Shown: piece by piece, positions 9,419-18,687 of the stretch | How positions within the stretch are numbered: the stretch's first letter is position 1 | Layout: the number at the start of each line of letters is the position of its first letter | Assembly (NCBI RefSeq): GCF_002909375.1 | Contig: NZ_PPXD01000026.1 | Location: 248,001-312,000 of the forward strand | Direction of reading: 5' to 3' | Length of the DNA stretch: 64,000 nucleotides | Origin: Cryobacterium zongtaii | GTDB lineage: Bacteria > Actinomycetota > Actinomycetes > Actinomycetales > Microbacteriaceae | Made by a program: the position numbers and the translations under genes | Notes under the pieces: generated by a model | What the model saw: only the letters and a program-made list of their open reading frames with translations | Database searches by the model: none | What the model was told of the DNA's origin: nothing

Positions 9419-11485
9419 CTATCCGGCCGGAGGAGTCCTCCACCGCATCAGCCAGGCCATCAGGTAGGCGCGGCTGTTGCCGTCGTCGATCCGCTCCTCC
9501 GGCAGGCTCGCCGCCGCGGTCAGGGCGTCGGATGCGGCCTCCGGGCCGCGCAGGCCGGCGTACATCAATAGGTAGTCGCCGAACATCACGTCATAGTTGC
9601 CTCCCGGCAGGGCGTCGGCGAGGTTGGCGCTCACCCTGTCGGGGTCGCCGCCGAGGTAGCCGGCAACCGGGCTCATCGGCAGCACCAGGATGCCCAGCAT
9701 GGCGCTGGGCTCGGCGCTGAACCAGGTGGCGTAGTCGCGCTTACCGCCCCAGACCAGCGACGTGACGGTGTGGTCGAAGCCCGCATAGACCGGATCGTCG
9801 AGGTCGAAGTCGGTCCAATAGGCACGGGACGAGGCCGCCTCACTGGAGAGCATCCACTCGGCCTCGGCCGCGAGGTCGGCCTGGTCGCTGGCGGCGGCCC
9901 AGAGCGCCAATCCGTTCCACGCGGTCACGGCCTCTGAACTGGATTCCTGGTTGTTCCCGTCGCCGAACGGCGAGGTGCCGCTGGCCCAGGAGTGGCCCGC
10001 GTAAGCGTCGAACACCCTTCGGTCCGGGAAGTATTCGCTGCCGCCGCTGGTGGCGAGGTCGGCGGCGAGCAGATTCAGCACCGGCGCCCAGCGCTGTGCG
10101 GCGTCGGGATCGTCGGCCGCGACCACCGCCGCGGCATAGAAGAAGTAGCCGTAGTGGAAATGGTGGTCGTTGAACTCCTCGGAGCCGAACGACGTGGCCA
10201 GGCCCACGATCCCCTTCGCGTCCGGGTCGTAGACGAAGCACCGTTCGGTGCGCTGGGCACAGGCGTCGGGGTCCATCCAGTCGTCGAGGGCGGTGCTGAG
10301 CCGGTCGGTGAGCGTGGCCACCGCATCATCGGCACCCACCTGCCGGGCCACCTCGAGCAGGTTCGCGGCCCGGTAGAGGGACTTGCCGCCGAAGTAGGTG
10401 TCGGCGGCGAAGGTCGTGGTGGCCGCCACATCAGCTCGCACCTGGTCGGCCAGCGCGGCGCGGTCCTCGTCACCGAGAGCCGAGAGGTCCAGGGCGCCGC
10501 TGGGAGTGACCGCGGGCACCGACCAGCTCAGCTGCCGGCCCTCGCACACCGTGAGCGCACCGTAGATGCTCGGGTACTCCCCCGCGGTGCACGACGCACC
10601 GTCGGCGAGACCCTGTGCCTGGTGCGGCAGCGCGGCGATCAGGGTGTCGCCGCCGTCGCTGGTGTCGTAGTGGATGGTCGTGGTGGCCGTATCCGTGCCG
10701 GCGCCGTACTCGACGCTGGTGCCGATGACCGGGTGCCGGGCCGCTTCGGCGAAGGCCGTGAGCGTGCCGCCGTCCGGCAGTGCGAACCAGGTCACGGATT
10801 GGCCGGCCGCGAGGGACAGGTCGGTGCCGGACGAAAGAGTTGCCGCACTGACCAGGCCGTAGGTGCTGCCGGCCACGTCGACACTCCACACGCCCTTTTC
10901 GGCTTCGTTGAAGGCTGTCGGCATGGTGAGGGCGACGTCCGCAGCGGCAGTGAAGGACACGAACGGCGACCCCTCGGCGATCACCGTGCTGCCGACCGTG
11001 GCGCCGTCGATGGACTGGCCGATCGTGACGGATGCTTCGTCGTAGGCGGTCACCGCCTGCTCCAGCCCGTCGCCGTCGCCGACCTGCACGCCGATCTGCC
11101 CGGCGAAGCCGCCCCTGATCACGTTGGTGTCCGCCGCCACCTCCGGCAGCCCGAAGGCGAAGCCGGAGTCGCTCAGTTGGAATGAGAGGGGCAGAGGGAA
11201 CACCGGCATCGATTCCTCGCCGAACACCAGACCGGAGAACCACCGGTTGGTCGGCGGGATGAGCCCGTCGGATAGGCGCGCTGTCGGCAGGGCTTTCAGA
11301 CTCTGCTGCGGAAGGGCGTCGACCAGCGGCGCGACCTCGTTGCCGGGGAAGATGGCCGCGCCAGGGGTCGAGGCCTCGGTGTCGACCGGTTCAACGGCAT
11401 CCGTCGTGGTGCACGCGGTGAGCGCGGCGGCGATCACCAGGCAGGTGGCGACGGCGAGGGTGCGCGGTGTTCTCTGCACGATCAC
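9419..11485 (-). CDS. GH81 family endo-beta-1,3-glucanase, lipoprotein
   Basis: Predicted surface-anchored hydrolase of beta-1,3-glucan, 688 residues. The signal peptide ends in the lipobox LTAC (Cys about residue 25). GH81 landmarks are visible: PTNRWFSGLVF near the N-terminus, the block EFNDHHFHYGYFFYAA (about residue 435) with the catalytic-acid region Asp, and SWASGTSPFGDGNNQESSSEA (about residue 490) holding the conserved glutamates. The gene is last in a three-gene operon. Its start overlaps the stop of the HlyD-like gene by 4 bp and follows the glycosyltransferase. A glucanase made with a polysaccharide synthase recalls the BcsZ cellulase of cellulose operons: it may trim, edit or release the polymer. 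If so, the polymer probably contains beta-1,3 linkages. This last step is inference. Confidence 0.87.
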   Translation of the reverse strand: MIVQRTPRTLAVATCLVIAAALTACTTTDAVEPVDTEASTPGAAIFPGNEVAPLVDALPQQSLKALPTARLSDGLIPPTNRWFSGLVFGEESMPVFPLPLSFQLSDSGFAFGLPEVAADTNVIRGGFAGQIGVQVGDGDGLEQAVTAYDEASVTIGQSIDGATVGSTVIAEGSPFVSFTAAADVALTMPTAFNEAEKGVWSVDVAGSTYGLVSAATLSSGTDLSLAAGQSVTWFALPDGGTLTAFAEAARHPVIGTSVEYGAGTDTATTTIHYDTSDGGDTLIAALPHQAQGLADGASCTAGEYPSIYGALTVCEGRQLSWSVPAVTPSGALDLSALGDEDRAALADQVRADVAATTTFAADTYFGGKSLYRAANLLEVARQVGADDAVATLTDRLSTALDDWMDPDACAQRTERCFVYDPDAKGIVGLATSFGSEEFNDHHFHYGYFFYAAAVVAADDPDAAQRWAPVLNLLAADLATSGGSEYFPDRRVFDAYAGHSWASGTSPFGDGNNQESSSEAVTAWNGLALWAAASDQADLAAEAEWMLSSEAASSRAYWTDFDLDDPVYAGFDHTVTSLVWGGKRDYATWFSAEPSAMLGILVLPMSPVAGYLGGDPDRVSANLADALPGGNYDVMFGDYLLMYAGLRGPEAASDALTAAASLPEERIDDGNSRAYLMAWLMRWRTPPAG

Positions 11486-12213
11486 AGCCCGATCGTCCGG
11501 AGGAACCCGAACAGGCCGTCGCTGGCGCCGGCGAGGAGGCCGTCGTCGCGCAGTTCTATCGTCGCCGTGACCGGGGTGCCGGGGGCGATGAGCCCGTTCG
11601 CGGCGCCGTCGACCAGGTCCGGGCTCAGGACCCTGGCCGTGGTCTCGGCATGGCCGTTCGCCGTCTGCACGTCCAGGGTGTCCATGGTCCCGGCCACCCG
11701 GGTCTGGTTCGGCAGCACGATGTCGACGGCGGCGCCGGGTTCGATCCGCGCGTAGTCGCCGCTGGTGAGGACGAAATCGGCCGACACGAACAGGGACCCG
11801 GCCTGGTCGATGACGGCGAGCACCTGCCCGGCCTGCACGAAGGAGCCGCGCTCGGTGCTGACGTCGGTGAGGGTGCCGTCGACGGCGGCGGTCAGGGTGA
11901 GCACGCCGTCCTCGGCCACCGAGTAGGCCACGCTGTCGACGGTGACCAGGCCTTCGGCAAGGTCGGCCTGCAGGGTGGGGCTCTGCAGGGTGAACAGCGC
12001 CTGACCCGCCCGCACCTGGTCGCCGTCCTCGACGAGTCGCTCCATGACGGTTCCGCCATAGTCGGAGCCCACTGGATACTCCGCCGCCTGAATTGAGGCG
12101 GAGGCGCTCATCACCTGGGCCTGCCGCTGGTTGAAGACGAGCGTGAGGACCGCGACGACGCCGACGACGACGACGAGTCCGAAGAAGAGCTTGAACCGGT
12201 TGGCCCAGGTCAT
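11482..12213 (-). CDS. HlyD-like membrane fusion/adaptor protein
   Basis: A 243-residue protein with one N-terminal membrane helix (residues 8-27, LFFGLVVVVGVVAVLTLVF) and an extracytoplasmic part built like HlyD-family adaptors. Two half-lipoyl motifs are seen: YGGTVMERLVEDGDQVRAGQALFTLQSP near residue 52 and AAVDGTLTDVSTERGSFVQAGQVLAVI near 110. A beta-barrel region follows (SGDYARIEPGAAVDIVLP). The usual long coiled-coil hairpin between the two lipoyl halves is very short, so this is a minimal adaptor. It overlaps the glycosyltransferase stop by 1 bp and the GH81 start by 4 bp. In rhizobial mixed-linkage glucan synthesis the BgsB partner of the BgsA synthase is also an HlyD-type protein, so a role in moving polymer across the envelope is likely but unproven. 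Confidence 0.85.
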   Translation of the reverse strand: MTWANRFKLFFGLVVVVGVVAVLTLVFNQRQAQVMSASASIQAAEYPVGSDYGGTVMERLVEDGDQVRAGQALFTLQSPTLQADLAEGLVTVDSVAYSVAEDGVLTLTAAVDGTLTDVSTERGSFVQAGQVLAVIDQAGSLFVSADFVLTSGDYARIEPGAAVDIVLPNQTRVAGTMDTLDVQTANGHAETTARVLSPDLVDGAANGLIAPGTPVTATIELRDDGLLAGASDGLFGFLRTIGL

Positions 12214-13925
12214 CAGGACACCATCCTTCGGGTCAGGGCGCGGGTGCGTCGTGCCAGGTGCGCCTCGTGCATTGCCGTGCCGACAAAAGTGCCCAGGATG
12301 AGAGTGTTGGTCACATTCCAGGCCGTGGCCAGGGTGAGGGTGCCGATCGAGAGGTCACGCCACACCGCCACCACCGAGGTGAGCAGGAGGAATACGAAGA
12401 AGAGCACCTGCGGGATCATGAAGTTGAACGGCGATCTCACCCGGGAGCGGTTGCCCGTGGCGCTCCAGTGCTGTTCCTTGCCGACCAGGACGTTCATCAG
12501 CGCGGCCACGTAGATGGGGAACGACGCCGTGGCGAGCATCAGGGTCTCCCAGCGGAACGAACCCATCGTGTAGAACGCCAGAAGCACCTGCATCAGGTAG
12601 AAACCCGCGTAGTACAGCAGCCAGGTCACCACCGTGGTGGAGAGGTTCATCGGGCGCAGGTCGAGGTAGATTTCCAGCGGTGGCACCAACAACAGCAGCA
12701 GCGGCGCGATCCCGGTGAGGTAGAAGGATGCCGTCACCAGGTACTGCAGACGCTGATCGAAGGTGAGACGGCGCCGAGGGCTGAGCGGGTTGCTGTGCAG
12801 CAGGATCTCGAAGCCGCCCGTGGCCCAGCGCAGTTGCTGTTTCGTGTACGCCTCCACGGTGTCCGGCGCGTGTCCGGTTGCCAGCACGGTGGGGATGTAG
12901 ATGGTTTTCCAGCCCGCCTCGTGCAGCTTCAGCGACGTCCAGACGTCTTCGGACTTGGAGTCGGTGTACATGCCGCCGATGTCGTTGATCGCATCTCGCC
13001 GGAAGATCACGTTGGTGCCCACGCAGAAAGCGGCGTTGAATCGGTTGCGACCGGGTTGGATGAACCTGTAGAAGACCGCCTGCATGTATCCGGCGCCGCG
13101 GGAGATGACGTTGTGCAGGTTGCGGTAGGCCTGGGGGGTCTGCACGAAGGCGACCTTGTCGTCGATGAAAAACGGCAGGGTCTCGATGAGGAACTCCCGC
13201 TTGGGCACGAAGTCGGCGTCGAAGATCACGAAGTACTCCGCAGTGCTCGCCGTGAGCGCGTGATTGACGTTGCCCGCCTTGGCGCCGTTCGAGCTCAGCC
13301 GGCGCAGGTAGCGCACGCCCAGCTCGGCGGCCAGATCACGCACCTCGTCGGAACGGCCGTCGTCCAACACCCAGGTGAGGTGCTCACCGTGCATCGCCCG
13401 CACCGCGGTGACGGTCTCCCGGATCACGTCGATGTCCTCACCATACGTGGTGATGAACACGTCGATGGTGGCCGGGTGGTCCCCCAGGTGCAGGGGCCAC
13501 CGCTCGGGCTGGTCCTTCAAGCCGTCCCGCGCTATTGATCTGCCGCGTACCAGAGTTGCCTGGGTACGGTGAAAGTCGAAATCCCGAGTATCTGTAGACC
13601 CGGACAGGATCGTCCACATCGACAGCAGCGCCTGGAAGATCAGGATCGACTCGGCCATGATCACGAGCGAGTATGGCAGCCAGTCGCCGCGGCTGGCCGG
13701 ATTGAGCAGGAAGTGAGCGTAGGCCAGGATTCCTACCGTTGCGATCAGAACCAGCATGACGAGGGACGGCGAGTGCGCGTGCCCCGTCGACTTGGGTCGA
13801 ACCGGGTGATCGTCGATCGCCAGTTGGTGGGTGGGGATCCGGTGCATAGCCTCGGGCGGCACTACTGAATCCACCGAGGATTCGGGTGTAGCGGGTATGC
13901 CAAGGCTGGGATGAAGGGAGGTCAT
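12213..13925 (-). CDS. Processive family-2 glycosyltransferase (cellulose/curdlan-synthase-like)
   Basis: Membrane polysaccharide synthase of 570 residues. Two membrane helices (about residues 52-74 and 82-108) precede a cytoplasmic GT-A domain with DVFITTYGE, DDG (about 190), FDADF, SED (standing for the usual TED catalytic base) and QQLRW (the Q-x-x-R-W motif of processive enzymes). Four to five helices follow, and there is no PilZ domain. This organisation is shared by cellulose synthase BcsA, curdlan synthase CrdS and mixed-linkage glucan synthase BgsA. The ATG at 13925 is preferred over in-frame codons upstream, whose translation is Arg/Pro/Ser-rich and not family-like. It is first in an operon with the HlyD-like and GH81 genes, pointing to a beta-glucan product. 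Confidence 0.88.
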   Translation of the reverse strand: MTSLHPSLGIPATPESSVDSVVPPEAMHRIPTHQLAIDDHPVRPKSTGHAHSPSLVMLVLIATVGILAYAHFLLNPASRGDWLPYSLVIMAESILIFQALLSMWTILSGSTDTRDFDFHRTQATLVRGRSIARDGLKDQPERWPLHLGDHPATIDVFITTYGEDIDVIRETVTAVRAMHGEHLTWVLDDGRSDEVRDLAAELGVRYLRRLSSNGAKAGNVNHALTASTAEYFVIFDADFVPKREFLIETLPFFIDDKVAFVQTPQAYRNLHNVISRGAGYMQAVFYRFIQPGRNRFNAAFCVGTNVIFRRDAINDIGGMYTDSKSEDVWTSLKLHEAGWKTIYIPTVLATGHAPDTVEAYTKQQLRWATGGFEILLHSNPLSPRRRLTFDQRLQYLVTASFYLTGIAPLLLLLVPPLEIYLDLRPMNLSTTVVTWLLYYAGFYLMQVLLAFYTMGSFRWETLMLATASFPIYVAALMNVLVGKEQHWSATGNRSRVRSPFNFMIPQVLFFVFLLLTSVVAVWRDLSIGTLTLATAWNVTNTLILGTFVGTAMHEAHLARRTRALTRRMVS

Positions 13926-14423
13926 CCGTCTCTCTTTCGGTACCGGATTCGGGTCCGGGGTTCGCGAACGGGATCTCGGGCGAGGTTCGCGTGCTGGTTC
14001 TGAGCGCGAGCATGAGCGGGTTCGACAGGGCCCTGAAACACGCGGCAACACCGACCGGGTCTGGCCTGGGTGTCGGCCGACCGGAGAGTGTGGGCATCGT
14101 CGTCCGGGTTCGCGGGATCTATCGGGATCGGGATCCGTGAGGGATCGGGATCCGTGAGGGATCGGGATGCGGATGGAGCGACGAGGTGCCGTAGGGTGCG
14201 GCGAAGACGACGGAACAGGGGAGGTCGGGTGCGACCGTTCGTCGTGGCGGGTAGGTTCACCATAGGTCCGTGGCGAGAGTTCTGACTATCGGTTCCCTCA
14301 ACGTTCTCGTGTTCGTAACACGGCTGTAACCCGGTGCTCGGCCCCGCTCTCACCCCCAGTCTCGTAAGGGATTCGTAAGGGCGGGTGCGCCCGTCTCACA
14401 GGCGGTAAATCTAAGCTGATCCC
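13926..14423. promoter_or_regulatory. 498-bp divergent intergenic region
   Basis: No credible gene is seen. The region separates the glucan operon (minus) from the membrane molybdoenzyme (plus) and is long for this dense genome. It holds a 17-bp tandem repeat (14127-14169), an inverted repeat CGTGTTCGTAACACG (14309-14323), and two further TCGTAAGGG-type copies at 14362-14380. On the plus side, TAAGCT 6 bp before the ATG at 14424 suggests a leaderless start. The palindrome is a candidate operator for either direction; the regulator is unknown. Confidence 0.55.
14127..14169. repeat. 17-bp tandem repeat, about 2.5 copies
   Basis: The unit ATCGGGATCCGTGAGGG occurs at 14127-14143 and identically at 14144-14160, followed by a partial third copy (ATCGGGATG) at 14161-14169. 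It lies about 200 bp upstream of the glycosyltransferase start, probably in its leader or promoter region. Confidence 0.85.
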
Positions 14424-15968
14424 ATGTCCAGCCCCGCCTCCCCGACACCGGCTCGCGCGCTGCCCGCCTTGGCCGGCCTGGCCGCGGTCCTGGCCGGATT
14501 CGGTCTCGCCGAACTTGTCGCCGGGCTCATCGCGCCCGGTGCCAGCCCGGTGCTGGTGGTCGGTGCTCTGCTGATCGATCTGGCGCCGGTCTGGGCCAAG
14601 GAACTGGTGATCTCGCTCTTCGGCACTGCCGATAAGGTGGCGCTGGTCGTCTTCATCGCCCTGGTCGCGGCGGTCCTGGCCGCACTGGCCGGCATCCTCG
14701 AATACCGGCGTGCCCCGTTCGGCCGGTTCGTGATCGTGGCCGCCGGCCTGGTCGCGCTCGCCGCGGCGCTCACCCGCGCCGGGGCATCCCCGTTCGACGC
14801 CGTGCCTCCGGTGCTGGCAATGGTGGTGGCCGCCCTGGTGCTCACGATGCTGATCAACAGGCTGCGCGTCCGCCGGGCCCCCACGGCGGCGACGGCCGAG
14901 CTGGACCGTCGCCGGTTTCTCGTTTACACCGGCATCAGCGCCGGTGCCGGCGTGCTCGCGGCCATCGGCGGCCAGCTGCTCACGGCCGGCAGCCGGGCAG
15001 CGGATGCGGCCAGGGCACTGTTCCCCCTGCCGGCACCTTCCACGCCGGGCACCCCGCTTCCCGCCGGAGCATCGTTCGACATCGATGGTCTCACGCCGAT
15101 CATCACCCCCAACGCGGAGTTCTACCGCATCGACACCGCCCTCTCGGTGCCGCGCATCGACCCGTCGACCTGGACCTTGAGGATCACCGGGCTGGTCGAG
15201 AACGAGGTGGAGATCGATTTCGCCGAGCTGCTGGCCCTGCCACTGGCGGAAAGCACCACCACGTTGGCCTGCGTGTCGAACTACGTGGGCGGCGACCTGA
15301 TCGGCAACGCCGTCTGGCTCGGCTACCCGATCCGTGACCTGCTCGCCAGGGCGAAGCCGCTCGCCGACGCCGACATGGTGCTGTCGCGCAGCCAGGACGG
15401 CTGGACCGCCAGCACCCCGCTCGAGGCCCTCACCGACGACCGCGACTCGATCCTCGCCGTGGGCATGAACGGCGAGCCGCTGCCTCTCGAACACGGCTAC
15501 CCGGTGCGGATGGTGGTGCCAGGCCTCTACGGGTACGTGTCGGCCACGAAGTGGGTCACCGAGCTGGTGGTCACCCGGTTCGACCAGGAGACGGCGTATT
15601 GGTCCACCCGCGGCTGGTCCCAGAAGGGTCCGGTGAAGCTGTCCTCGCGCGTGGACGTGCCCCGCGAGAATGCGAGCGTTGACGCCGGAACGGTGACGGT
15701 CGCCGGCGTCGCGTGGAGCCAACACGTGGGCATCTCGGCCGTCGACGTGCAGGTGGACGACGGCGACTGGAACCCCGCCACCCTGGCCGACGCGATCTCC
15801 GTCGACACCTGGCGGCAGTGGCGCTGGGATTGGGACGCCCCGAGCGGCTCGCACACCCTGCGGGTGCGCGCCACAGATGCCGACGGCTTGGTGCAGACCA
15901 GCAAGCTCGCCGATGTCGCGCCGGACGGCGCCACCGGCCTGCACGAAATCCGCGTGTCGATTTCGTGA
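14424..15968 (+). CDS. Membrane-anchored molybdopterin (sulfite-oxidase-like) oxidoreductase
   Basis: 514 residues. Four or five N-terminal membrane helices (about residues 10-155) lead to a DRRRFLVYTGISAGAG segment that looks like a retained twin-arginine element, then a molybdopterin domain. The Moco-ligand cysteine is in TTTLACVSNYVGGDLIG (about residue 290), followed by VPGLYGYVSATKWVTELVVT. A C-terminal Mo-co dimerisation domain (about 405-514) is present, as in sulfite oxidase and SorT-type enzymes. The catalytic domain should face the outside of the membrane. The substrate is not predictable. The stop overlaps the GTG of the DksA/TraR-like gene by 3 bp. A second, shorter molybdoenzyme lies 1.4 kb downstream. 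Confidence 0.9.
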   Translation: MSSPASPTPARALPALAGLAAVLAGFGLAELVAGLIAPGASPVLVVGALLIDLAPVWAKELVISLFGTADKVALVVFIALVAAVLAALAGILEYRRAPFGRFVIVAAGLVALAAALTRAGASPFDAVPPVLAMVVAALVLTMLINRLRVRRAPTAATAELDRRRFLVYTGISAGAGVLAAIGGQLLTAGSRAADAARALFPLPAPSTPGTPLPAGASFDIDGLTPIITPNAEFYRIDTALSVPRIDPSTWTLRITGLVENEVEIDFAELLALPLAESTTTLACVSNYVGGDLIGNAVWLGYPIRDLLARAKPLADADMVLSRSQDGWTASTPLEALTDDRDSILAVGMNGEPLPLEHGYPVRMVVPGLYGYVSATKWVTELVVTRFDQETAYWSTRGWSQKGPVKLSSRVDVPRENASVDAGTVTVAGVAWSQHVGISAVDVQVDDGDWNPATLADAISVDTWRQWRWDWDAPSGSHTLRVRATDADGLVQTSKLADVAPDGATGLHEIRVSIS

Positions 15969-17251: not shown

Positions 17252-17347
17252 GGGCCACGCCCGACTGGAGTCGTGACACTGGTGAATCGTCCCGGCACAC
17301 GCTACAACAGGGGTGACACAGGAACCCGCCGCAGAAAGGACACCATC

Positions 17348-17941
17348 ATGGGAATCGTCTCCTCAGGCTTTTTCGGCCGCGGCCGCCGCGACGACCCGGC
17401 TCTCCCACCCGGCCAGCACCTCACCGACGGGTTCCCGGTGCTTTCGGCCGGCCCCACCCCGCGGATCACTCCGGAGGAGTGGGAGTTCACCATCACCACC
17501 GAGACCGGCCAGGTGCACCGCTGGAGTTGGACGGAGTTCCTCGCGCTCCAGCAGGATGACGTGAGCCGCGACATCCACTGCGTCACCAGTTGGTCGAAGC
17601 TCGGCACCAGCTGGCGCGGCGTCTCGCTCGACACCCTCTTCGAATCGGTCGAGTCCGACTGCGAATTCACCATGGCGCACTCCTACGGCGGTTACACGAC
17701 CAACGTTCCGCTCGACGACCTGCTCGACGGCAAGGCCTGGATCGCGCACGAGTTCGACGGTGAGGCACTCGAACCGGCCCACGGCGGCCCGGCCCGCCTG
17801 CTGGTTCCGCACCTGTACTTCTGGAAAAGCGCCAAGTGGGTGCGCGGACTCGAGATGCTCCGGCAGGACGAACCCGGTTTCTGGGAGAGCAACGGCTACC
17901 ACATGTACGGCGACCCCTGGCGCGAAGAGCGCTACTGGTGA
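17348..17941 (+). CDS. Small sulfite-oxidase-like molybdoenzyme
   Basis: 197 residues, essentially only the molybdopterin domain, without membrane helices, signal peptide or dimerisation domain. The Moco-ligand Cys is in SRDIHCVTSWSKLGTSWRGV (about residue 77), followed by VPLDDLLDGKAWIAHEFDG, HGGPARLLVPHLYFWKSAKWVRGLE and a terminal GDPWREERYW typical of this cytoplasmic group. The start ATG at 17348 has an AGAAAGGA ribosome site. The stop overlaps the start of a flavin reductase by 4 bp, and a DUF6510 protein follows. The three probably form one electron-transfer unit, with the flavoprotein passing electrons between NAD(P)H and the molybdenum centre. Substrate unknown. Confidence 0.9.
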   Translation: MGIVSSGFFGRGRRDDPALPPGQHLTDGFPVLSAGPTPRITPEEWEFTITTETGQVHRWSWTEFLALQQDDVSRDIHCVTSWSKLGTSWRGVSLDTLFESVESDCEFTMAHSYGGYTTNVPLDDLLDGKAWIAHEFDGEALEPAHGGPARLLVPHLYFWKSAKWVRGLEMLRQDEPGFWESNGYHMYGDPWREERYW

Positions 17942-18687
17942 GAACCGGCTGGAGAGTGGCGGAGGTGATCGGCGTGACCCCGGAGACCCGGACCGCCCGC
18001 ACCCTGCGCCTGCGCTTGCCCGGCCTGACCGGGCACCGCGCCGGCCAGCATGTCGACGTGCGCCTCACCGCCCCAGACGGGTACACCGCCGTGCGCTCCT
18101 ACTCGGTCGCGTCGGCGTTGCCCGGGGACGAATTCGACCTCACGGTGGAGGAGCTGGCCGACGGTGAGGTGTCGCCCTATCTTGTGCACCAGGTTGCCGT
18201 GGGCGACCAGCTGGAGGTGCGCGGCCCGGTCGGCGGCTGGTTCGTCTGGGACCCAGCCGATCCCTCGCCCGTGCAACTCATCGCCGGCGGCTCCGGAGTG
18301 GTGCCGCTGATGGCCATGCTCCGCGCCCACGCGGCCGCCGACCCCGCCTCCCCCGGCGCCGCCGCCCCGTTCCGCCTGCTCTACTCGGTGCGCGCACCCG
18401 ACGCCGTCTACTACGGTGGCGAACTCGATGACCTGGCCCGCTCTCCGCTCGCGGATGTCTCCGTCGTGTACACCCGCCAGGCACCGGCCGGCAGTGGCCG
18501 GCCACCCCGGCGCCTGGATGCGGCGACCCTGGTGGAGAGCGTGCTACCGGCCGCCGACAACCCCGCCGTGTTCGTCTGCGGCGCCACCGCCTTCGTCGAA
18601 AGCGTCGCCGACTGGCTCGTGCAGGCCGGCCATTCCCCCGATCGGATCAAAACCGAACGCTACGGCGGCACCGGGACCAGACCGTGA
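17938..18687 (+). CDS. FAD-binding ferredoxin-NADP-reductase-like oxidoreductase
   Basis: 249 residues with both domains of the ferredoxin reductase family. The FAD domain shows RAGQHVDVRL and RSYSVAS (the RxYS flavin-binding motif, about residue 57). The NAD(P) domain shows LIAGGSGVVPLMAML (about 110), LYSVRAPDAVYY and VFVCGATAFVESVADWL. No 2Fe-2S domain is attached. GTG at 17938 overlaps the previous stop, and its own stop overlaps the DUF6510 start. It is the likely redox partner of the molybdoenzyme upstream. Confidence 0.9.
   Translation: MRTGWRVAEVIGVTPETRTARTLRLRLPGLTGHRAGQHVDVRLTAPDGYTAVRSYSVASALPGDEFDLTVEELADGEVSPYLVHQVAVGDQLEVRGPVGGWFVWDPADPSPVQLIAGGSGVVPLMAMLRAHAAADPASPGAAAPFRLLYSVRAPDAVYYGGELDDLARSPLADVSVVYTRQAPAGSGRPPRRLDAATLVESVLPAADNPAVFVCGATAFVESVADWLVQAGHSPDRIKTERYGGTGTRP

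Follow-up and report, generated by a model that had tools for sequence, protein, structure and literature searches.

Which polymer is made, and for what use, at a locus where a polysaccharide synthase gene overlaps the gene of a protein that carries a membrane anchor, and this in turn overlaps the gene of a glucanase? The question is raised by a contig of Cryobacterium zongtaii (NZ_PPXD01000026.1, positions 248,001 to 312,000; this stretch of 64,000 nucleotides is termed the window). Genes for a glycosyltransferase of family 2 (GT2), an HlyD-type protein and a glycoside hydrolase of family 81 (GH81), here called the triad, were found by open reading frame analysis to lie head to tail on the minus strand, as follows.

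12213..13925, minus strand: GT2 synthase, 570 residues from the ATG at 13925
11482..12213, minus strand: HlyD-type adaptor, 243 residues, with an N-terminal transmembrane helix, two lipoyl halves without a long hairpin, and a beta-barrel
9419..11485, minus strand: predicted GH81 endo-beta-1,3-glucanase lipoprotein, 688 residues

The GT2 frame is open up to a GTG at 14051, and the ATG at 13925 was used as its start. The GT2 stop overlaps the HlyD ATG by 1 bp (12213) and the HlyD stop overlaps the GH81 GTG by 4 bp (11482-11485), in agreement with an earlier reading of the letters alone (the original prediction) that had described three minus-strand genes with these overlaps. Our interpretation is that the triad is probably an operon for a curdlan-type beta-1,3-glucan, in which a synthase is combined with an adaptor at the exit and with a glucanase that is tethered to the membrane and either trims the product or mobilises it.

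Conservation of the gene set was examined in a sample of 199 Microbacteriaceae genomes. The GT2 had 26 close matches in 24 of these genomes (61-74% identity, apart from itself), and the next best match was only 34% identical (E 4e-58). At the short-flank loci from the 24 genomes, an HlyD gene adjoined the GT2 gene in 24/24 and at least the start of a GH81 gene was present in 23/24; for the remaining locus (L014), GH81 was found in its longer version, L045. All 20 long loci, including both second copies, displayed GT2-HlyD-GH81 in identical order and on an identical strand, and HlyD and GH81 were beside the GT2 at 26/26 orthologous places. GH81 was detected in 31 of the 199 genomes, namely in 24/24 with the GT2 and 7/175 without it (Fisher 5e-25, not corrected for kinship). 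The 24 triad-bearing genomes span 18 genus codes, and the distribution is patchy, the triad being missing in the three other Cryobacterium genomes of the sample.

A wider genome scan identified 251 GT2 relatives, of which the best 80 are referred to as named loci. GT2 was followed by HlyD on one strand in 80/80 of these and GH81 came next in 78/80; at the other two (L086 and L125) the contig ends 43 and 573 bases past HlyD, and the GH81 reading in L084 and L094 is likewise cut by a contig end. Families with the triad among the rows of the tree described below were Microbacteriaceae, Cellulomonadaceae, Promicromonosporaceae, Sanguibacteraceae, Demequinaceae, Propionibacteriaceae and Nocardioidaceae; the distribution given here covers these families and makes no claim of absence outside them. 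The spacing between GT2 stop and HlyD start was -4 to +1 bp in 33/33 loci, these being the named loci for which the start-site pattern worked (at L129, for example, HlyD starts 4 bp before the GT2 end). Joint conservation of the gene set, the lack of which would have counted against the original prediction, was thus observed at both scales, and the recurrence of the three genes in unchanged order at the orthologous places examined, together with the invariant catalytic residues described below, shows that the set is more than chance. The triad is a real, widespread and conserved module. Two irregular records were encountered among these loci: the GH81 of Naasia aerilata (L085:9477-11490) is split over three overlapping frames, representing a broken gene or sequencing errors, and a record titled Acidobacteria bacterium (L076) bears a Microbacteriaceae-type triad, its title being probably wrong.

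The triad was also found to be inherited as one unit. Of 101 loci (the window, L036-L055 and L056-L135), 96 were complete with a GH81 stretch of >550 residues and 88 had a distinct GT2. Distances of the three proteins across the 88 loci were correlated (Mantel r 0.76-0.82), which could come from shared descent alone. More telling are two genomes with two triads each, since in all four triads the nearest relatives of the three proteins were the same set of loci. These copies are L042 and L037 (genome G084) and L044 and L038 (G076), one copy being nearest to Cryobacterium-type loci and the other to another type. No fourth conserved gene was found among the neighbours in 100 loci or in 34 representative loci. 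The widest upstream neighbour was a luciferase-like gene (8/34) and the widest downstream neighbour a LytR_C gene (7/34), two of each kind being identified by Pfam, and all were in Cellulomonadaceae, Promicromonosporaceae and Sanguibacteraceae. Because flanking genes are common only within lineages, the unit comprises three genes.

The glucanase of the triad bears on the nature of the product. The window protein scored 192 bits against a cut-off of 25.6 for the C-terminal GH81 domain (PF17652) and 17.9 bits against 25.6 for the N-terminal domain (PF03639), which 6 of 16 members matched at E 0.001. Its best match in the PDB was 6fop, a GH81 enzyme, at E 8e-65 over residues 68-680. The description of this protein as a lipoprotein with GH81 blocks therefore stands, and the residues that underlie it are located as follows.

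11411..11413, minus strand: lipobox cysteine, Cys 25 of LTAC; invariant in 16/16 aligned GH81 proteins
10166..10168, minus strand: D440 of NDHHFHYGYF, a motif that lines up with its counterpart in GH81 enzymes of solved structure; 88/88
9932..9946, minus strand: E514 to E518 of GNNQESSSEA, from the alignment to 6fop; both Glu 88/88

Conservation of these residues was scored on alignment columns; strict text patterns matched 55 and 65 of 78. A lipobox was detected in 65 of the 78 GH81 proteins of the named loci by use of a loose pattern with start codons not fixed. By eye, 11 Cellulomonas rows had an N-terminal hydrophobic stretch and no lipobox, and L093 and L133 were unclear. Judged from these N-termini, the triad GH81 proteins look tethered to the membrane. 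They are also compact, with no Pfam domain besides GH81 in 16/16. By contrast, five unlinked GH81 proteins (one each from three of the seven triad-less genomes with GH81, and two from G084, which also bears the triad) carried F5/8C, fn3 or CWB2 modules, and GH81 frames in the seven triad-less Microbacteriaceae genomes were 1084-1960 residues long. Endo-beta-1,3-glucanase is the sole activity reported for the family, according to the available text of PMC9609564. In the triad, a beta-1,3-glucanase that looks tethered is co-translated with a beta-glucan synthase and constantly linked to it, and this points to a beta-1,3-glucan as the product, just as the cellulases of cellulose operons go with a cellulose product.

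Analysis of the GT2 was consistent with a processive beta-glycan synthase. Pfam GT2 families and Cellulose_synt were over cut-off, and the best PDB sequence match was the cellulose synthase BcsA (E 6e-50), with a TIGR03030 score (252 bits versus a cut-off of 699) below the cellulose synthase threshold. The 14 PDB sequence matches were cellulose synthases and one archaeal mannosyltransferase, with no hyaluronan synthase among them. DDG, KAG, DAD, QTPQ, SED and QQLRW were all present in the window protein, of which the following were mapped.

13356..13364, minus strand: DDG motif, residues 188-190; invariant in 88/88 distinct loci
13212..13220, minus strand: DAD motif, followed by F239 as in CrdS and BgsA (H in BcsA); invariant 88/88
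12945..12953, minus strand: SED motif, with the catalytic base by comparison with BcsA and RiGT2; invariant 88/88
12825..12839, minus strand: QQLRW motif; QQ.RW invariant 88/88
12453..12467, minus strand: WSATG, at the place of the FxVTxK gating-loop motif, the lysine being absent; W..TG 88/88

The combination of D, D, D, QxxRW with KAG and QxPH/Q was found in 88/88 distinct loci, one row having S for T in QTPQ. The FxVTxK motif, described as fully conserved in the BcsA, CrdS and BgsA families in the text available from PMC6821405, was altered, its K missing in 32/32 triad GT2 proteins. No PilZ domain was detected by Pfam in the window GT2 or in 18/18 of the GT2 set scanned, and since PilZ is lacking, gating by cyclic di-GMP (c-di-GMP) of the BcsA kind appears unlikely. 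The DAD, SED and QxxRW motifs without PilZ had been noted in the original prediction and were recovered here. A model of the GT2 (pLDDT 75) was aligned to BcsA at Z 28.8 over 458 residues (3.2 A), ahead of an archaeal mannosyltransferase (Z 24.0, 321 residues), a plant cellulose synthase (22.7, 466) and a hyaluronan synthase (21.4, 391); the BcsA membrane-channel fold is thus predicted for this protein, and no grouping with non-processive or hyaluronan-type enzymes was seen.

Could the synthase instead make cellulose or another glycan, with a GH81 that serves in foraging or against fungi and has no more than the operon in common with it? BcsA is the best match in both sequence and fold, residue Y286 is BcsA-like, and a Paenibacillus GH81 is reported to attack yeast cell walls (PMC9609564, available text). 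The strict linkage of the genes (26/26 and 78/80 places), the apparent tethering of the triad enzyme and the large modular build of the five unlinked GH81 proteins from the same family all argue the other way, as do the missing PilZ and the absence of BcsB from ten window proteins scanned. We regard this explanation as quite improbable.

The GT2 was placed among known synthases by use of a 50-row tree, for which the program warned of long branches meeting and whose rows did not include RiGT2, CcsA or CslA. The 32 triad GT2 proteins formed one clade (99/99), the curdlan synthase CrdS, the mixed-linkage synthase BgsA and their kin another (100/99), and BcsA a third (99/98); the original prediction had named BcsA, CrdS and BgsA for comparison, and the GT2 was found in a clade of its own outside all of them. 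Residues F239, Q265 and Q282 of the triad GT2 match CrdS and BgsA and differ from BcsA in 32/32 triad proteins, and QTPQ is likewise as in CrdS and BgsA. At 10 sites that split BcsA (3 rows) from the CrdS/BgsA side (7 rows), the triad GT2 was CrdS/BgsA-like at 3, BcsA-like at 1, of its own kind at 2 and variable at 4. At 118 sites that split CrdS (3 rows) from BgsA (2 rows), it was CrdS-like at 14, BgsA-like at 11, of its own kind at 29 and variable at 64, a result that does not decide between them. A product call from GT2 residues was attempted and none was possible, linkage not being readable at this level.

Gene context provided a further comparison. The reference for CrdS (L139) was chosen based on its crdASC layout, a crdA length of 1455 bp (1458 bp in the available text of PMC10819609) and the fit of 7/7 numbered CrdS residues. 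In the fetched loci, CrdS and BgsA genes both adjoin HlyD-type genes, CrdA being barely over the HlyD_3 cut-off (24.2 versus 22.2 bits); the HlyD-type nature of BgsB is also described in PMC9495663, as far as its available text goes. The pairing with BgsA/BgsB to which the original prediction had pointed was thus borne out, and a pairing with CrdS, unmentioned there, was found too. The crdASC operon of Agrobacterium (L139, L145) resembles the triad in a GT2 with D, D, D, QxxRW, SED and QTPQ and no Pfam PilZ beside the HlyD-family CrdA. It differs in that CrdS is in the other GT2 clade and keeps FxVTxK, the order is HlyD-GT2-CrdC, CrdA is twice as long as the triad HlyD, and the third gene product, CrdC (L139:6908-8188), has no Pfam match and is not a GH81. 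The bgsBA genes of Sinorhizobium meliloti and Rhizobium etli (L136, L144) share a GT2 without PilZ and an HlyD-type protein; BgsA is in the other clade, with TED and FxVTxK, the operon in print has two genes, and, unlike the triad GT2, BgsA has a C-terminal c-di-GMP site (PMC5567048, available text). The bcs cellulose operons share the BcsA fold and include a hydrolase of their own product, BcsZ, which parallels the triad GH81. They differ from the triad, which lacks PilZ, has an HlyD-type partner rather than BcsB (next to BcsA in two of three fetched loci), and encodes a beta-1,3-glucanase. RiGT2 of Romboutsia ilealis is a Gram-positive, BcsA-like GT2 that differs in having a PilZ domain and is a mixed-linkage synthase (PMC10374906); its sequence was outside this comparison, and the main text of that paper names neither actinobacteria, GH81 nor HlyD.

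These comparisons bear on a further explanation, that the synthase makes mixed-linkage (1,3;1,4)-beta-glucan like BgsA or RiGT2 and that the GH81 cuts only the 1,3 runs. The HlyD partner and lack of PilZ are as in BgsA, R293 is as in BgsA where CrdS has K, and the distances to CrdS and BgsA are equal. The GT2 is, however, outside the BgsA clade, and the slight excess of CrdS-like over BgsA-like sites decides nothing. The GH81 enzyme of PMC9609564 left barley mixed-linkage glucan, carboxymethylcellulose and cellulose uncut, with minor activity noted for others in the text available. As the activity of GH81 enzymes on mixed-linkage glucan is slight or absent, a glucan with beta-1,3 bonds alone is the better fit, and we consider a mixed-linkage product rather improbable. 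The original prediction, which envisaged a beta-1,3-containing glucan with a surface editing enzyme, is thus supported in part: the gene set is conserved as a unit, and the polymer is more probably a pure beta-1,3-glucan than a BgsA-like mixed-linkage one.

The HlyD-type protein of the window scored 44 bits for HlyD_3 (cut-off 22.2) and has a barrel-sandwich (lipoyl) domain with an N-terminal membrane anchor. Its model (pLDDT 82) displayed one transmembrane helix, two lipoyl halves and a barrel, the lipoyl halves being joined by no more than an 8-residue helix (79-86) and the long alpha-helical hairpin missing, which agrees with the minimal HlyD-type protein predicted earlier. The closest structural matches were ZneB (Z 12.9, 184 residues, 3.2 A), tied with MacA (Z about 12-13). 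The triad protein is about half the size of CrdA and BgsB. Such a hairpin-less adaptor offers a minimal example of the way in which proteins of the HlyD type may assist synthases where no Gram-negative outer membrane is present.

Based on these findings, we infer that the GT2 would polymerise glucose from UDP-glucose and extrude the growing glucan through the channel that it forms in the membrane. The HlyD-type protein would be held in the membrane by its anchor, with the barrel on the outer side, and would dock where the chain emerges. There it would act as a short adaptor, a role also proposed for BgsB, but it lacks a long hairpin with which to extend to an outer membrane. The GH81 would be fixed to the outer membrane surface of the cell by lipid (in Cellulomonas probably by an N-terminal helix) and would cut the emerging or stored polymer and so set chain length and release, or recover sugar when carbon is short.

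A link to a known phenotype was found in Cellulomonas. C. flavigena is reported to make and re-use abundant curdlan and other cellulomonads a little (PMC3544764, PMC3035266, PMC10819609, each as available in part). The curdlan-type polymer of C. flavigena is documented in works of 1990-2011 cited in PMC3544764, where the genes are only guessed at in the text available. Native Cellulomonas curdlan is reported to take up aniline blue only once it has been extracted with alkali (PMC10819609). Two GT2 proteins per sequenced cellulomonad, with 35-39% identity to the Agrobacterium curdlan synthase, and GH81 in all three sequenced cellulomonads are reported there, without a GT2-GH81 connection being drawn in that part of the source. 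In the genus of C. cellasea, a GT2 with HlyD and GH81 beside it was present in 7/7 genomes searched, and these triad GT2 proteins were 31.5-41% identical to CrdS over 276-466 residues. The pairs are Cfla_3154 and Cfla_2615 in C. flavigena, Celf_3456/3585 and Celgi_1506/0939, and the triad GT2 probably corresponds to one member of each; agreement with a count of two per genome is only loose, since a second GT2 passed E 1e-30 in only 2/7. The triad is thus a precise three-gene candidate for Cellulomonas curdlan and would be a likely answer to how it is made and re-used. In it, synthesis is coupled to a hydrolase from a family for which a single activity has been reported.

Literature searches of open-licence papers, by titles and abstracts, found no paper linking GT2, HlyD and GH81. 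The claim of novelty in the original prediction holds for the operon link and less so for the GT2 part, which is not wholly new because two CrdS-like GT2 proteins per cellulomonad, tied to curdlan, are already in print (PMC3544764, available text).

Several observations weigh against a curdlan-type product. The proven producer C. flavigena was not among the seven Cellulomonas genomes, and a second, longer CrdS-like GT2 (38-39% identity to CrdS over about 180 residues) in C. cellasea and one other of the seven, at the E 1e-30 cut-off, could be the curdlan synthase. The triad GT2 is outside the CrdS clade, has the altered FxVTxK and BcsA-like Y286 noted above, and is about equally identical in its catalytic domain to BcsA (36.2%), CrdS (37.5%) and BgsA (37.6%). 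It has two of the seven channel residues that Oehme et al. give for CrdS (Q237, Q259, K270, H374, W422, E439, H442), and BgsA has both as well. In sources available in part, C. fimi and C. gilvus are reported not to grow on added curdlan, although both are said to have GH81 (PMC3544764), curdlan production is reported to be absent in C. gelida (PMC3035266), and GH81 was detected in C. fimi culture fluid (PMC4780727), which, if this is the triad enzyme, speaks against firm tethering.

The use of the polymer was also considered, as the GH81 may mainly mobilise stored surface glucan under carbon starvation rather than edit chains. C. flavigena curdlan vanishes on nitrogen-rich medium without carbohydrate (PMC10819609), its re-use route was found unclear in PMC3544764 (both as far as the available text goes), and a further GH81, larger than that of the triad, lies immediately downstream at four Cellulomonas loci. 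The failure of C. fimi and C. gilvus to grow on added curdlan argues against this, as do the gene overlap and the membrane tethering, which suggest that the enzyme acts while the polymer is being made; for mobilisation, free regulation would be expected. We hold such a mainly mobilising role to be possible but unlikely.

Returning to the curdlan-type operon, we tentatively suggest, as a possibility somewhat short of an even chance, that the triad is a Gram-positive curdlan operon whose GT2 lineage is separate from the alphaproteobacterial CrdS and reached beta-1,3 specificity on its own, the tethered GH81 allowing a surface glucan to be made and recovered. If true, this would account for Cellulomonas curdlan and imply that Cryobacterium, Curtobacterium, Frigoribacterium, Demequina and others make curdlan that has gone unrecognised. 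Beta-1,3-glucan making would likely extend to bacteria of seven actinobacterial families, many triad bearers being soil and plant actinobacteria, and the separate synthase clade would be useful for studying linkage choice.

With regard to the surroundings of the window operon, a molybdopterin oxidoreductase gene lies upstream on the plus strand, pointing away, and a DUF3516 helicase gene lies downstream on the same strand as the operon; these near neighbours recur in 7/100 loci, only those of Cryobacterium. A promoter scan gave 0 promoter-like sites (0.5 expected by chance), and a terminator scan gave 3 terminator-like sites against 1.7 by chance, nothing to build on. Divergent molybdopterin oxidoreductase-like genes with an FAD/NAD oxidoreductase were noted at 14424-15968 and 17273-18687 of the window. 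The second GH81 matches in Cellulomonas are on the same strand as the triad (L102, L108, L118, L121); that of L102 (11769-15344) is a 1191-residue frame with, by eye, fn3-like and binding-module-like C-terminal parts. Other GT2 genes were also observed: a 971-residue cellulose-synthase-like GT2 (L040:2630-5545) lies within 1 kb of the GH81 of a triad, C. cellasea and a relative encode similar long GT2 proteins (L153, L154), and in many Microbacteriaceae there is another GT2 whose identity of about 41-47% is confined to a short stretch.

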